A stretch of 64,000 nt of DNA, from assembly GCA_030148005.1 (NCBI GenBank), contig JASBUI010000019.1, forward strand, positions 124,001-188,000, in the 5' to 3' direction. The notes under the pieces are model-generated. The model was given only the letters and a program-made list of their open reading frames with translations, searched no databases and was not told the DNA's origin. The stretch is from Paracoccaceae bacterium (GTDB lineage: Bacteria > Pseudomonadota > Alphaproteobacteria > Rhodobacterales > Rhodobacteraceae). The translations under genes were made by a program, and so were the position numbers. Of this stretch, positions 3,759 to 18,449 are shown piece by piece; positions within the stretch are counted from its first letter, which is position 1, and every line of letters begins with the position of its first letter.

Positions 3759-5258
3759 ATGTTTGACCTCGGCCCGGCAAATCCGCATCTTGGCGAGAGG
3801 TCACGAAATGCACGGATCGAATCATCGCTGCTGAAGTTTCTTAAAACAACGGGCCTGCGTCTGCGGCTTAACTATGGTCAAAAGATCTTTCTTCTGGCCA
3901 CGATACCGCTTGTCGTCGCGGCAGCGGCCATTGCCGTTCTGGTCACCTACCAGTCGCGCCAATTGGCAGAGCGGGAGATTGCCGCGCTTGAGGCACAGCT
4001 GATCGCCGCCAAACGCGAGGAGATGAAGAACTATATCTCACTGGCGCGCACTGCTTTCGTGAACATCTATGGCCGTGCCGGCCCGGATGACGAGGCGGCC
4101 AAACTGGCTGTCACGCAAATTCTTGCCGCGATGATCTATGGGCAGGACGGGTATTTCTTCGTCTTTGACTATGAGGGCAACAACCTTGTGTCCCCTCGCC
4201 TGACCTATTTGATCGACAAGAACTGGCGCGGGCTTGAAGACCGCAATGGCACGCCGATCACCGATGAGCTTATCAAACTGGCCCGCAAGGGGGGCGGCTA
4301 TCACAGCTTTGATTGGATCAAGCCATCGACCGGAGAGACCGCGCGCATGATCGCCTATGTCGCGGGATTGCAGGACTGGAAGTGGGCGATCGGGACGGGC
4401 ATTTTCATCGATGACGTGCTGGACAAGGTCGCGGCCGCGCGCGCGGGCACGCAAGCGCGCATCCGCACGACATTCATCTGGATCGGTTTGATCACGCTTT
4501 CGGCCCTTCTGACCGTCTTTCTGACCGGGCTCTTGATCACGATCCGCGAAAGGCGCCTTGCGGATGCCAAGTTGAAAGAGCTGACGCAGCGGATTTTTGA
4601 CACGCAGGAAGAGGAACGCGGCCGCGTGGCGCGCGAGCTTCACGATAGTATCAGCCAGATACTTGTCGGTGCACGCTATGCGCTGGAACTGGCGCGGCGG
4701 CATCTTAACGTGGGCGATGATCGCGGGCCGGGAAGCCTGAACAAGGGGATCGATGGCCTCTCTGGCGCGATCCAAGAGGTTCGCCGCATCAGCCGCGATC
4801 TGCGCCCCGGAGTTCTTGATGATCTTGGCCTTGGCCCTGCGCTGAAATCCCTGACCGAAGAATTTTCCGCGCGCACAGGCATTGAAACCGAGTTCGAGAC
4901 CGTGGTTTTCAGTAACCGGCTGGACAAAGACTCCAAGATTGCGCTTTACCGCATTGCCCAAGAGGCCCTGACAAATATCGAGCGCCACTCTGGCGCCAGC
5001 CGGGTCTCATTGAAACTGGGCGGCCACAAAAGCGGTGCGACAATGCGTATCCAGGACAATGGGCGCGGGATGGAGAACAAACCGTCAAGATCGGCAGGCC
5101 AGCCCGGCATCGGTCTGAGGAACATGCAAGAGCGTATGGAACAACTGGATGGAACTTTGCGGATCCTGTCGTCGCGCTCTGGCACCGTGATCGAGGCGCA
5201 GGTGCCGCTGACACACCTGTTGCCGCCCGAAAGCAAGAAGAAGAAGGCAAGCGCATGA
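3759..5258 (+). CDS. Cache-domain sensor histidine kinase (HisKA_3 / NarX-DegS type)
   Basis: A 499-residue membrane kinase. A first transmembrane helix at about 43-65 and a second at about 237-262 enclose an extracytoplasmic single-Cache domain containing GYFFVFDYEGNNLVSP and the closing WAIGTGIFIDDV. After the second helix comes a HisKA_3 dimerisation helix with phosphoacceptor His295 (EEERGRVARELHDSISQ), then a HATPase_c domain with the N-box (AQEALTNIERHS) and G-boxes (DNGRGM, GIGLRNM). The gene overlaps its response regulator by ATGA and is divergent from the TRAP transporter operon, so organic acid sensing and control of that transporter is a reasonable guess. The start at ATG 3759 has no strong ribosome site; a start within the next 40 codons is possible. 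Confidence 0.9.
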   Translation: MFDLGPANPHLGERSRNARIESSLLKFLKTTGLRLRLNYGQKIFLLATIPLVVAAAAIAVLVTYQSRQLAEREIAALEAQLIAAKREEMKNYISLARTAFVNIYGRAGPDDEAAKLAVTQILAAMIYGQDGYFFVFDYEGNNLVSPRLTYLIDKNWRGLEDRNGTPITDELIKLARKGGGYHSFDWIKPSTGETARMIAYVAGLQDWKWAIGTGIFIDDVLDKVAAARAGTQARIRTTFIWIGLITLSALLTVFLTGLLITIRERRLADAKLKELTQRIFDTQEEERGRVARELHDSISQILVGARYALELARRHLNVGDDRGPGSLNKGIDGLSGAIQEVRRISRDLRPGVLDDLGLGPALKSLTEEFSARTGIETEFETVVFSNRLDKDSKIALYRIAQEALTNIERHSGASRVSLKLGGHKSGATMRIQDNGRGMENKPSRSAGQPGIGLRNMQERMEQLDGTLRILSSRSGTVIEAQVPLTHLLPPESKKKKASA

Positions 5259-5899
5259 GTGCAGAAATTCGCGTCCTGATCGTCGATGACCACCCGATGG
5301 TCGCCGAGGGCATCCAGTCGATTTTGGAAACCTATGACGACATCAACGTTGTCGGCACGCTGTCCAACGGGCGCGAGGCGATCGAGCAGGTTGAAAAGAT
5401 GGCACCCGATGTCGTGCTGCTTGACCTCAACATGCCCGAGGTCGGCGGTCTTTCGGCCACCGAGATCATCCTAGAGCGGCGCCCCGGAACCCGCATCCTG
5501 ATCCTGTCAATGCATGACAGCGCCGAGTATATCTCTTCTGCCCTGTCGCATGGCGCGGTGGGCTACATCCTGAAAGACGTGCCTACCGAAGAGATCCGCA
5601 CCGCGATCGATACCGTCATGCACGGCCAGCGCTATCTTTGCACTGGCGCGACCGCTTCTCTGAAACCCAAAACTTCGGACGGGCGAGAGCCGCTGACATC
5701 GCGCGAACAGACGATCCTTCTGGAACTGGCCCAAGGCAAGTCGAACAAAGAGGTCGCGGCAGAGCTGGATATTTCGGTTCGCACGGTCGAAACCCACCGC
5801 AAGAACCTTAAGCGCAAGCTGGGCATCAGTTCGACCGCTGGACTGACCCGCTATGCGATGGAACATGGTGTTTTGCAGGGCACCGGCGTCGGACTTTGA
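5255..5899 (+). CDS. NarL/FixJ (LuxR-type) response regulator
   Basis: A 214-residue regulator. The receiver domain shows the acidic pair D11-D12, phosphoacceptor Asp57 (DVVLLDLNMPEVGG) and conserved Lys107 (YILKDVP). The C-terminal GerE/LuxR helix-turn-helix spans about 145-205 (PLTSREQTILLELAQGKSNK, then VRTVETHRKNLKRKLGI). Its start overlaps the kinase stop by four bases, so the two proteins are translationally coupled and form a cognate pair. The likely target is the adjacent divergent TRAP operon, possibly also genes elsewhere. The 167-base gap between the TRAP binding protein and the kinase is where an operator would be expected, but I see no clear palindrome there. Confidence 0.94.
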   Translation: MSAEIRVLIVDDHPMVAEGIQSILETYDDINVVGTLSNGREAIEQVEKMAPDVVLLDLNMPEVGGLSATEIILERRPGTRILILSMHDSAEYISSALSHGAVGYILKDVPTEEIRTAIDTVMHGQRYLCTGATASLKPKTSDGREPLTSREQTILLELAQGKSNKEVAAELDISVRTVETHRKNLKRKLGISSTAGLTRYAMEHGVLQGTGVGL

Positions 5900-6062
5900 T
5901 GCCCGCCCCGGGCAAGGGGCCCGAAAATTACCCAAAACACCCGCAGGCGCGCAACAAAAGCAAAGAATTCTGCGCAATAGGACAATCTTTTCTCACCCTT
6001 GCAGGTTGACGCCCCCAGATACCCGCCATAATGTCTCGCCCACGAAACAAGGAGTATCCCGA

Positions 6063-6110
6063 ATGCACAGCATTCTAGTCGTGGTGGGAAAATGGCGCAT
6101 GGGCCGGTAA
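6063..6110 (+). CDS. ilvBN leader peptide (attenuation sensor)
   Basis: A 15-codon open frame, MHSILVVVGKWRMGR, starting 8 bases after a good ribosome site (AAGGAG at about 6049-6054). Five consecutive codons for Ile, Leu, Val, Val, Val are exactly the end products of the pathway encoded downstream. The stop is followed by a GC-rich hairpin with six Ts and then, 35 bases later, by ilvB. This is the classical design of a branched-chain amino acid attenuator leader: ribosomes stalling on the ILVVV codons favour an antiterminator. In the ORF track it appears only as the tail of a longer spurious frame. Confidence 0.85.
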   Translation: MHSILVVVGKWRMGR

Positions 6111-6137
6111 CGGAAACCCTAAGGGAACCCCATGCGC
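6095..6137 (+). promoter_or_regulatory. Candidate antiterminator / early hairpin of ilv attenuator
   Basis: GCGCATGGG at 6095-6103, inside the last leader codons, is perfectly complementary to CCCATGCGC at 6129-6137 (9 bp). The 3' arm overlaps the first two bases of the terminator's 5' arm (6136-6142), so the two structures compete. Pairing would be possible when a ribosome is held at the upstream ILVVV codons and blocked when it translates to the leader stop. The base pairing is visible; the switching mechanism is inferred by analogy with enterobacterial ilv and rhizobial leader attenuators. Confidence 0.6.
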
Positions 6138-6161
6138 CCCCGCCCGGACGGGGGCTTTTTT
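6136..6161 (+). terminator. Attenuator terminator upstream of ilvB
   Basis: A 7-bp GC stem GCCCCCG/CGGGGGC with loop CCCGGA is followed at once by TTTTTT, 26 bases after the leader-peptide stop. It lies before ilvB on the same strand with no complete gene between, so it can only serve to attenuate the ilv transcript. Confidence 0.85.
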
Positions 6162-6195
6162 ATGCGCAATCGATGCGGAAGTTGGAGAGAGAAAG

Positions 6196-7950
6196 ATGAC
6201 ACGTCAAATGACCGGCGCGAAAATGGTGATCCAGGCTCTGAAAGATCAGGGTGTGGATGTCGTATTCGGATATCCCGGTGGCGCCGTCCTACCGATCTAT
6301 GACGAGATCTTTCAGCAAAACGACATTCGCCACGTGCTTGTGCGCCACGAACAGGGCGCGGTTCACGCCGCCGAAGGCTATGCGCGTTCGACGGGCAAGC
6401 CGGGCGTCTGCCTTGTAACTTCGGGCCCTGGGGCAACCAACGCCGTTACCGGCCTGACCGATGCGTTGATGGACAGCATTCCGATCATCGTTCTGACCGG
6501 TCAGGTTCCGACCTTCATGATCGGCAATGACGCCTTTCAGGAAGCCGACACCGTTGGCATCACCCGCCCCTGCACAAAGCATAACTGGCTGGTGCGCGAG
6601 ACCTCGAAACTGTCCGAAACGATCCATCAGGCGTTCCACGTGGCCACCCAAGGCCGCCCCGGCCCGGTTCTGGTCGACATCCCCAAGGACGTTCAGTTTG
6701 CCAGCGCCTCTTATACCCCGCCGGGCAAGTCGCGCACTTCGCACTATGCGCCCCGCATGAAGGGTGACATCGACGCGATCACCAAGCTGGTCGAGATGAT
6801 GGAAAAGGCCGAGCGTCCGGTTTTCTACACCGGCGGCGGCGTGATCAACTCTGGCCCCGCAGCAAGTCAGCTTTTGCGCGAACTGGTGGGGGCGACGGGC
6901 TTTCCGATCACCTCTACCCTGATGGGTCTTGGCGCCTATCCCGCCTCGGGCGAGCAATGGCTGGGTATGCTGGGCATGCACGGGCTTTATGAGGCGAACC
7001 TTGCGATGCATGGCTGCGATCTGATGATCAACATCGGTGCGCGCTTTGACGACCGGATCACCGGGCGGCTGGACAGTTTCAGCCCCGGCTCCAAAAAGGT
7101 GCATATCGACATCGACCCGTCATCGATCAACAAGGTGATCCATGTCGACGTGCCGATCATCGGCGATGTCGGCCATGTGCTTGAAGATATCCTGAAGGTC
7201 TGGAAATCGCGGGGCCGCAAAACCAATTCCGCCGCTGTTGGCAAATGGTGGTCGAAGATCGAAGAGTGGAAGAAGGTCAACTGCCTTGCCTTTGAGCAAA
7301 AGGGCAAGACCATCCTGCCTCAGTACGCGCTTAGCCGGCTGGAAGAGCTGACCAAGAAACATGACCGCTACATCTGTACCGAGGTCGGCCAGCACCAGAT
7401 GTGGGCCGCGCAATACCTTGGGTTTGAAGACCCCAACCGCTGGATGACTTCGGGCGGCCTGGGCACGATGGGCTATGGATTTCCGGCCTCTGTTGGCGTT
7501 CAGATGGCGCACCCGGACGCTTTGGTCATCAATGTCGCGGGCGAGGCAAGCTGGCTGATGAACATGCAAGAGATGGGAACAGCGGTGCAGTACCGCCTGC
7601 CCGTCAAACAGTTCATTTTGAACAACGAACGACTTGGCATGGTGCGCCAGTGGCAGGAATTGCTGCACGGCGAGCGCTATTCGCAAAGCTGGTCTGAAGC
7701 CCTGCCCGATTTCGTGAAACTGGCAGAGGCCTTTGGCGCCAAGGGCATCCTGTGCAAGGACCCGGCCGATCTGGATGATGCCATCATGGAGATGATCAAC
7801 CACGACGGGCCGGTCATATTCGACTGCCTTGTCGAAAAGCACGAGAACTGCTTTCCGATGATCCCGTCGGGCGAGCCGCACAACAAGATGCTGCTTGGAT
7901 CAGCCTCCACCAAGGACGCAATTGGCGCCTCGGGCGCGGTGATGGTCTAA
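6196..7950 (+). CDS. ilvB: Acetolactate synthase large (catalytic) subunit
   Basis: A 584-residue ThDP enzyme making acetolactate or acetohydroxybutyrate, the first common step of valine, leucine and isoleucine synthesis. The N-terminal domain has GYPGGAVLPIYDE and the cofactor-activating Glu in RHEQGAVHAAEG; the middle domain has NIGARFDDRITGRL for FAD binding; the C-terminal ThDP domain has ILNNERLGMVRQWQ. The ThDP/Mg motif normally written GDGSF is here AGEASWLMNMQEM, so the usual metal-binding Asp is Glu. I recall the same variant in related Rhodobacterales enzymes, so it is probably functional. A ribosome site (GGAGAGAG) precedes ATG 6196. The regulatory subunit follows 42 bases downstream and the attenuator lies immediately upstream. 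Confidence 0.97.
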   Translation: MTRQMTGAKMVIQALKDQGVDVVFGYPGGAVLPIYDEIFQQNDIRHVLVRHEQGAVHAAEGYARSTGKPGVCLVTSGPGATNAVTGLTDALMDSIPIIVLTGQVPTFMIGNDAFQEADTVGITRPCTKHNWLVRETSKLSETIHQAFHVATQGRPGPVLVDIPKDVQFASASYTPPGKSRTSHYAPRMKGDIDAITKLVEMMEKAERPVFYTGGGVINSGPAASQLLRELVGATGFPITSTLMGLGAYPASGEQWLGMLGMHGLYEANLAMHGCDLMINIGARFDDRITGRLDSFSPGSKKVHIDIDPSSINKVIHVDVPIIGDVGHVLEDILKVWKSRGRKTNSAAVGKWWSKIEEWKKVNCLAFEQKGKTILPQYALSRLEELTKKHDRYICTEVGQHQMWAAQYLGFEDPNRWMTSGGLGTMGYGFPASVGVQMAHPDALVINVAGEASWLMNMQEMGTAVQYRLPVKQFILNNERLGMVRQWQELLHGERYSQSWSEALPDFVKLAEAFGAKGILCKDPADLDDAIMEMINHDGPVIFDCLVEKHENCFPMIPSGEPHNKMLLGSASTKDAIGASGAVMV

Positions 7951-8013
7951 GCGGCCACGGATCGCTCCCCTTGTCGGGGCACGGAATGCAAAGTGCTAAG
8001 TAAGGAAAAGATG

Positions 8014-8577
8014 ATGTCGGCACTCAAGATCAAGAAAGGGTCCTCAAGGCATTCGGCCTATGACCTTCGCGACCCTAATGGCGAACTCATAGAACGGCAT
8101 ACACTAGCCGTTCTGGTAGAGAATGAGCCTGGCGTTCTGGCCCGGGTGATCGGCCTCTTTTCGGGGCGCGGATACAACATTGAAAGCCTGACGGTGGCCG
8201 AAGTTGATCACAGCGGGCACCTTAGCCGCATCACCATTGTCACGACAGGAACACCGGCCGTCATCGAACAGATCAAGGCGCAGCTTGGGCGCATTGTGCC
8301 TGTTCACGACGTGCACGACCTGACGGTCGAAGGGCGCCCGGTTGAGCGTGAACTGGCGCTTCTGAAAGTGTCGGGCACGGGCGAGAAGCGGGTTGAGGCG
8401 CTGCGCCTTGCGGACATTTTCCGCGCCAATGTCGTGGATTCGACCCTTGGTTCCTTTGTGTTCGAAATCACCGGCACCTCGGAAAAGATCGATGCCTTTG
8501 CCGATCTGATGCGGCCCCTTGGGCTGGAAGAAACGGCGCGTACTGGCGTTGCGGCCCTGTCGCGCGGAGCCGACTGA
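8014..8577 (+). CDS. ilvN: Acetolactate synthase small (regulatory) subunit
   Basis: A 187-residue regulatory subunit with an N-terminal ACT domain (HTLAVLVENEPGVLARVIGL, then GRGYNIESLTV), which mediates feedback inhibition by valine, and a C-terminal ALS_ss domain (DIFRANVVDSTLGSFVFEITG). The ORF track opens at a GTG at 7993; ATG 8014, giving MSALKIKKGS, is chosen because AAGGAAA lies just upstream and the family starts this way. It forms the holoenzyme with IlvB and shares its transcript and attenuator. Confidence 0.95.
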   Translation: MSALKIKKGSSRHSAYDLRDPNGELIERHTLAVLVENEPGVLARVIGLFSGRGYNIESLTVAEVDHSGHLSRITIVTTGTPAVIEQIKAQLGRIVPVHDVHDLTVEGRPVERELALLKVSGTGEKRVEALRLADIFRANVVDSTLGSFVFEITGTSEKIDAFADLMRPLGLEETARTGVAALSRGAD

Positions 8578-18372: not shown

Positions 18373-18449
18373 TGGTCGGGGCGATAGGATTCGAACCTAC
18401 GACCTACGGTTCCCAAAACCGCCGCGCTACCAGGCTGCGCTACGCCCCG
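18373..18449 (-). tRNA. tRNA-Pro (anticodon TGG)
   Basis: The reverse strand reads CGGGGCGTAGCGCAGCCTGG at its 5' end. Acceptor arms CGGGGCG/CGCCCCG pair fully, the anticodon stem CGGTT/AACCG encloses the loop TTTGGGA (anticodon TGG), and the T arm contains GGTTCGAATCC. The 3' end A-CCA is encoded, giving 77 bases. It follows the cold-shock/DUF192 genes on the same strand by 42 bases. Confidence 0.97.

Follow-up and report, generated by a model that had tools for sequence, protein, structure and literature searches.

In the Escherichia coli trp leader, the position of the translating ribosome picks either a terminator or an antiterminator, and an early hairpin holds the stop codon of the leader peptide in its loop. 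Attenuators have reportedly been predicted for the alphaproteobacterial ilvIH operon as well, by Vitreschak et al. in 2004, a study that PMC6123439 and PMC10272879 cite. The element described here shares with those ilvIH attenuators the bacterial class, the enzyme and the principle, and our work adds a hairpin around the stop codon, a bias in codon choice and a set of relatives linked to a transporter gene.

For the ilvBN operon, an attenuator in Caulobacter crescentus, reported by Tarleton, Malakooti and Ely (1994), is described in PMC4117421 as having tandem Ile and Val codons and a rho-independent terminator; by that description, it resembles our locus in belonging to an Alphaproteobacterium and in operon, leader and terminator. 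Leader ORFs rich in branched-chain codons also precede ilvB in the ilvB-II, ilvB-OMG and ilvB motifs of Breaker's group, of which ilvB-II was reporter-tested (PMC10272879); unlike our element, these motifs belong to other lineages, and they are absent from the Rfam scan matches of the region. In Rhodobacterales, the uORFC-8-2 motif before cysS has a leader peptide and two main stems, the second of which is an intrinsic terminator (PMC8632094), but its codons are for Cys and both its gene and its sequence are different. The Rfam family Atu_C8 (RF02502) shares with our element the core GCGCAUGGG...CCCAUGCGC, a leader whose stop codon lies in a hairpin loop, and a terminator; it differs in standing before a transporter gene instead of ilvB, and in having a terminator that is clear of the pairing called P1 below.

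Here we report on a leader element that precedes ilvBN in a Paracoccaceae bacterium, within a stretch of 64,000 nucleotides, the whole of which is referred to as the window. The kind of system is already known, and the Rhodobacteraceae ilvB element is a new, well-conserved example without an Rfam family of its own; among the papers accessible to our literature search, none turned up on this element or on its link to Atu_C8. We put at roughly 0.8 the probability that the ilvBN operon would be governed by a ribosome-mediated transcription attenuator of the kind outlined below. That attenuation acts through the Ile, Leu and Val codons as such appears highly likely from the sequences compared.

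The leader and its conservation before ilvB

A sequence-only reading of this DNA had proposed a 15-codon leader with a good ribosome site and Ile-Leu-Val-Val-Val in a row, and this proved correct to the base. The leader peptide ORF (MHSILVVVGKWRMGR and stop, 6063-6110, on the forward strand like every other part of the element and its operon), recognized by its translation and by matching leaders in relatives, is preceded by the ribosome-binding site AAGGAG at 6049-6054, carries the control codons ATT CTA GTC GTG GTG at 6072-6086, which are I/L/V-rich in relatives too, and ends in a stop codon at 6108-6110. The 7-bp terminator stem with six Ts that had been placed directly before ilvB was confirmed by a terminator scan and by the relatives: an intrinsic terminator at 6136-6161, with its stem formed by 6136-6142 and 6149-6155 and followed by T6156-6161, has the sequence GCCCCCG-CCCGGA-CGGGGGC-TTTTTT, giving seven G-C pairs and a 6-nt loop. 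The genes that follow are ilvB (6196-7950), encoding the large subunit of acetolactate synthase with Pfam TPP-enzyme domains, and ilvN (7993-8577), encoding the small subunit with the Pfam ALS small-subunit domain.

Upstream, a putative promoter consists of TTGACG at 6006-6011 and CATAAT at 6027-6032; its 15-nt spacer meant that it was missed by a consensus scan demanding 16-18 nt. In 135 of 142 relatives, TTGAC is found at a similar place, mostly 53-60 nt 5' of the leader start. The genes directly 5' of the attenuator (3759-5899) encode a histidine kinase that carries a Cache sensor domain, and a LuxR-type response regulator. Counting the two strands of the window together, a single ATG-initiated ORF of 8-30 codons contains at least five I/L/V codons in succession and has a terminator no more than 60 nt away, and the same criteria yielded none in 60 simulated windows of equal dinucleotide make-up. 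The fold of 6031-6162 has a z-score of -3.05. When the whole window was scanned against Rfam at the gathering score, no cis-regulatory family was matched and tRNA alone was returned (a single gene at 18376-18449, on the minus strand). A riboswitch seems unlikely, as every copy carries the leader ORF and no Rfam riboswitch matched at its cut-off.

To follow the element across relatives, IlvB was searched for in 249 genomes of the window's family together with a named genome collection, and upstream sequence was taken at 170 loci. The IlvB comparison puts the window among Rhodobacteraceae/Paracoccaceae; of the named relatives, a Paracoccaceae metagenome assembly comes nearest, with an IlvB that is 92% identical. 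By an automatic scan, ilvB is preceded by a short leader, recognized by its I/L/V run or by an RMG motif, at 168 of the 169 loci having enough upstream sequence. Removal of duplicates left 142 distinct canonical copies, with the consensus M..LVVIVG..RMGR before the stop codon and with lengths of 15 codons (131 copies), 16 codons (10) or 14 codons (1). The alignment that had been suggested as a check for conserved I/L/V codons bears them out, the leader having 4-6 such residues in 136 of the 142. In 141 of 142 relatives, a Shine-Dalgarno-like core lies no more than 25 nt from the leader start, and the pairs of the terminator stem are retained in all 51 aligned relatives. With the I/L/V run, leader, stop codon and terminator kept across the family, attenuation control of ilvBN, as originally claimed, has strong comparative support.

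At a few places (loci L070, L140 and L170, and genomes G001 and G004), ilvB is preceded by an unrelated I/L/V leader, each with its own terminator. Leaders of this non-RMGR kind read MRHNVVLI, MNGILVLCWRGDRAA, MKILISVVVR and MKTQCQNIVVVM, each ending at a stop codon and each accompanied by a terminator. The occurrence of different I/L/V leaders with terminators at the same gene suggests that what is selected is the combination of I/L/V codons and a terminator, and not one RNA sequence. The loci with such unrelated ilvB leaders are L070, L140, L170, L309 and L310, MRHNVVLI being an example of the type.

Codon choice in the canonical leaders departs strongly from that in the relatives' ilvB genes. 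Of the Leu codons, 92 of 181 are CTA in the leaders but 68 of 3242 in ilvB (Fisher p ~1e-84); of the Val codons, 197 of 412 are GTA in the leaders but 153 of 3074 in ilvB (p ~1e-107). These p-values overstate independence, as the sequences are related. By theory and by experiment, CUA is the most starvation-sensitive Leu control codon in the leu leader (PMC1183508). Alternatively, A may be favoured at the third position as a means of keeping G away from the C-rich arm of the terminator, and relatives do avoid G at those third positions; however, CTA is far above the equally G-free CTC, so that avoidance of G alone does not account for the bias. Over the last five codons before the stop, the synonymous sites are frozen: 137 of 142 leaders use CGC for the Arg of codon -4, 125 of 142 have CGG as their last codon, and 141 of 142 carry a G at stop-13, where 84.7 (sd 3.9) would be expected from ilvB codon usage. 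This freezing of synonymous sites implies that, to a large extent at least, the conserved RMGR tail reflects the RNA rather than the peptide.

P1, the stop-codon hairpin and the modelled switch

The sequence-only reading had also paired 6095-6103 (GCGCATGGG) with 6129-6137 (CCCATGCGC) over 9 bp as an alternative pairing that overlaps the terminator stem. The two strands are exact reverse complements, and one more G-C pair (6094-6138) extends the helix, which we call P1. Its 5' arm (6094-6103), the candidate antiterminator strand, lies in the codons for W-R-M-G, and its 3' arm (6129-6138), recognized from the fold, is near-invariant among relatives. The overlap with the terminator exists, but it is restricted to 6136-6137, or to 6138 as well when the extra pair is counted, so that P1 and the terminator have 2-3 nt in common, whereas the antiterminator of the Escherichia coli trp leader takes most of the terminator 5' arm. 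A small hairpin at 6104-6113, CCG[GUAA]CGG, displays the stop codon of the leader in its loop, and the predicted fold alone gives a second small hairpin, CCC-UAA-GGG, at 6117-6125 within P1.

Compensatory changes, which had been proposed as a check on the stems, were found for the small hairpin around the stop codon and not for P1. Among relatives, P1 shows almost no covariation because its strands hardly vary. For the stop-codon hairpin, a covariation test on fixed columns gave a weak signal, since the register of the hairpin shifts from one sequence to another; we scored it instead by a register-free permutation test, in which the pairing score of 31 non-consensus sequences was 5.66 against 4.64 +/- 0.21 with the downstream parts permuted, and 0 of 500 permutations reached as high a value. 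Compensatory variants include GCCGC[TGA]GCGGC, GGCC[TGA]GGCC, GCCC[TGAC]GGGC and GGCGGC[GTA]GCCGCC. In the trp leader, pause hairpin 1:2 likewise has the stop codon in its loop, and the stop-codon hairpin described here is probably its counterpart.

To model the switch, we folded all 142 leaders with everything masked up to 12 nt past the first base of the ribosome's A-site codon. In this equilibrium model, which ignores the order of folding during transcription (P1 being made first), the window's terminator has a base-pair probability of 0-0.25 when the ribosome is on any of the first four control codons and of 1.0 when it is at the stop codon; if the stall came only at the last control codon, the terminator would still be whole. 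A ribosome at the stop codon lets the terminator base form in virtually all of the 142 folded leaders, and after an early stall the basal terminator pair of the median relative still has a modelled probability of ~0.8. RNAalifold sets P1 and the terminator side by side, able to form together as adjacent helices. The antiterminator role first given to the 9-bp pairing thus holds up in part: P1 is a strong competitor of the terminator in the window's own fold, but it shares few nucleotides with it, competes weakly in most relatives, hardly covaries, and corresponds in Rhizobiales to an element whose two helices do not overlap. We lean slightly towards P1 as the antiterminator, for which it is the most likely candidate.

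Under the proposed mechanism, transcription would start near 6040 and a ribosome would translate the 15-codon leader. Given an ample supply of charged Ile-, Leu- and Val-tRNAs, this ribosome would reach the stop codon at 6108-6110 and cover the P1 5' arm together with the stop-codon hairpin, upon which the full 7-bp terminator (6136-6161) would form and transcription would end. A shortage of one of these tRNAs would make it stall on codons 4-8, and P1 would then form first, removing 2-3 basal terminator pairs from the U-run and permitting read-through into ilvBN. We infer that the leader RNA is made and terminated, with amino-acid supply as the signal.

A related element before a transporter gene

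A covariance model (R1) built from ilvB-linked copies only gave single strong matches in several other alphaproteobacterial families, and a second model (R2) found further matches. Beyond the window's family there are 12 clear matches (E < 1e-10), every one of which precedes a transporter and none of which precedes ilvB; in these 12 genomes and in seven Rhizobiales genomes, no such element was found upstream of ilvB. Three of the transporter proteins were scanned and fall in the Bcr/CflA efflux subfamily of NCBIfam. Within the window's own family, genomes G001 and G004 have the element before the transporter, and it is their ilvB that has an unrelated I/L/V leader. Copies linked to a transporter of the Bcr/CflA-family MFS type, which occur in many alphaproteobacterial families, are those at L211-L218, L284-L290, L302 and L303 (and L254 and L261). 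In the transporter-linked copies (alignments A1 and A2), the P1 3' arm CCAUGCGCC is more conserved than its 5' partner, and mid-helix mismatches are uncompensated.

Compared with Rfam, the window element aligns over its full length with RF02502, Atu_C8, at 18.4 bits (E = 0.34), below the cut-off of 50 bits. The next weak match, THF-II, was dismissed as a mere reflection of the GC-rich terminator stem. On these alignments, we would call the window element a homologue of Atu_C8 and not a member of it. Genuine Atu_C8 members (L171 and L176-L179) precede the same transporter and have leaders with Val runs, for example MQVSVVVGRRMGKAA ending at its stop codon; a Val-run leader ORF, the stop-codon hairpin and P1 are common to the window element and Atu_C8. 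The end-to-end alignment, together with the Val-run leaders before the transporter, points to one element occurring at two kinds of gene, and in sequence Atu_C8 looks like an attenuator directly before the transporter gene rather than a free-standing sRNA. We consider it reasonably probable that a single cassette, made up of a Val-run leader, an RMGR-like end, P1, the stop-codon hairpin and the terminator, is common to the Bcr/CflA-type transporter and to Rhodobacteraceae ilvBN, and that it has been tuned with CTA and GTA codons at ilvB.

Alternative readings and significance

Attenuation by I/L/V codons could be real while P1 and the stop-codon hairpin serve mainly as a pause or timing structure that lets the ribosome catch up, with the terminator opposed in some other way, for example by a helix stacked directly below it or by pairing of the upstream codons GUGGUGGG (6081-6088) with 6139-6145. 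We regard this as possible but doubtful. It would agree with the compatibility of P1 and the terminator as adjacent helices, with the weak competition in most relatives, with the Rhizobiales form in which the two do not overlap, and with the whole-leader fold of the window, where part of 6081-6088 is paired with the terminator arm. Against it, 141 of 142 leaders have the same G as partner of the first terminator C, and the GUGGUGGG pairing is not general, relatives avoiding G at those third positions.

Other readings give the leader a different signal or a different target. The homologous elements before Bcr/CflA-family transporters, where Val runs are shorter and sometimes lost (L218, L217), might suggest that the leader senses slow translation generally, as with ribosome-targeting drugs, and not the supply of Ile, Leu and Val; this is quite unlikely for ilvB, where nearly all copies retain a run of 5-6 I/L/V codons, the CTA/GTA bias is extreme and even the unrelated leaders in the family are I/L/V-rich. 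No less unlikely is a terminated leader that works mainly as a trans-acting small RNA, or a peptide that acts in trans. Rfam does list the related Rhizobiales element, Atu_C8, as an sRNA, and a precedent exists in Sinorhizobium meliloti, whose trp leader products are described as acting in trans (PMC7298713), but almost every genome of the family has the element at ilvB, and the N-terminal part of its peptide is freely variable. A role in trans would be compatible with attenuation and does not exclude it. Finally, the terminator is complete without the other parts and could lower ilvBN expression by a constant amount, the leader ORF being incidental; conservation of the I/L/V run, start, Shine-Dalgarno core and stop codon, together with the codon bias, makes this most improbable.

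Ribosome-mediated attenuation of ilvBN, the reading we prefer, would place the synthesis of branched-chain amino acids under attenuator control family-wide, in a group that is abundant in marine and freshwater habitats. The overlap of 2-3 nt also poses the question of the minimum overlap that is sufficient for an antiterminator. If one cassette does indeed serve both kinds of gene, the transporter would also be under leader-peptide control, possibly sensing translation inhibitors or branched-chain amino acids, and its occurrence at both suggests that unrelated genes can share an attenuator cassette.
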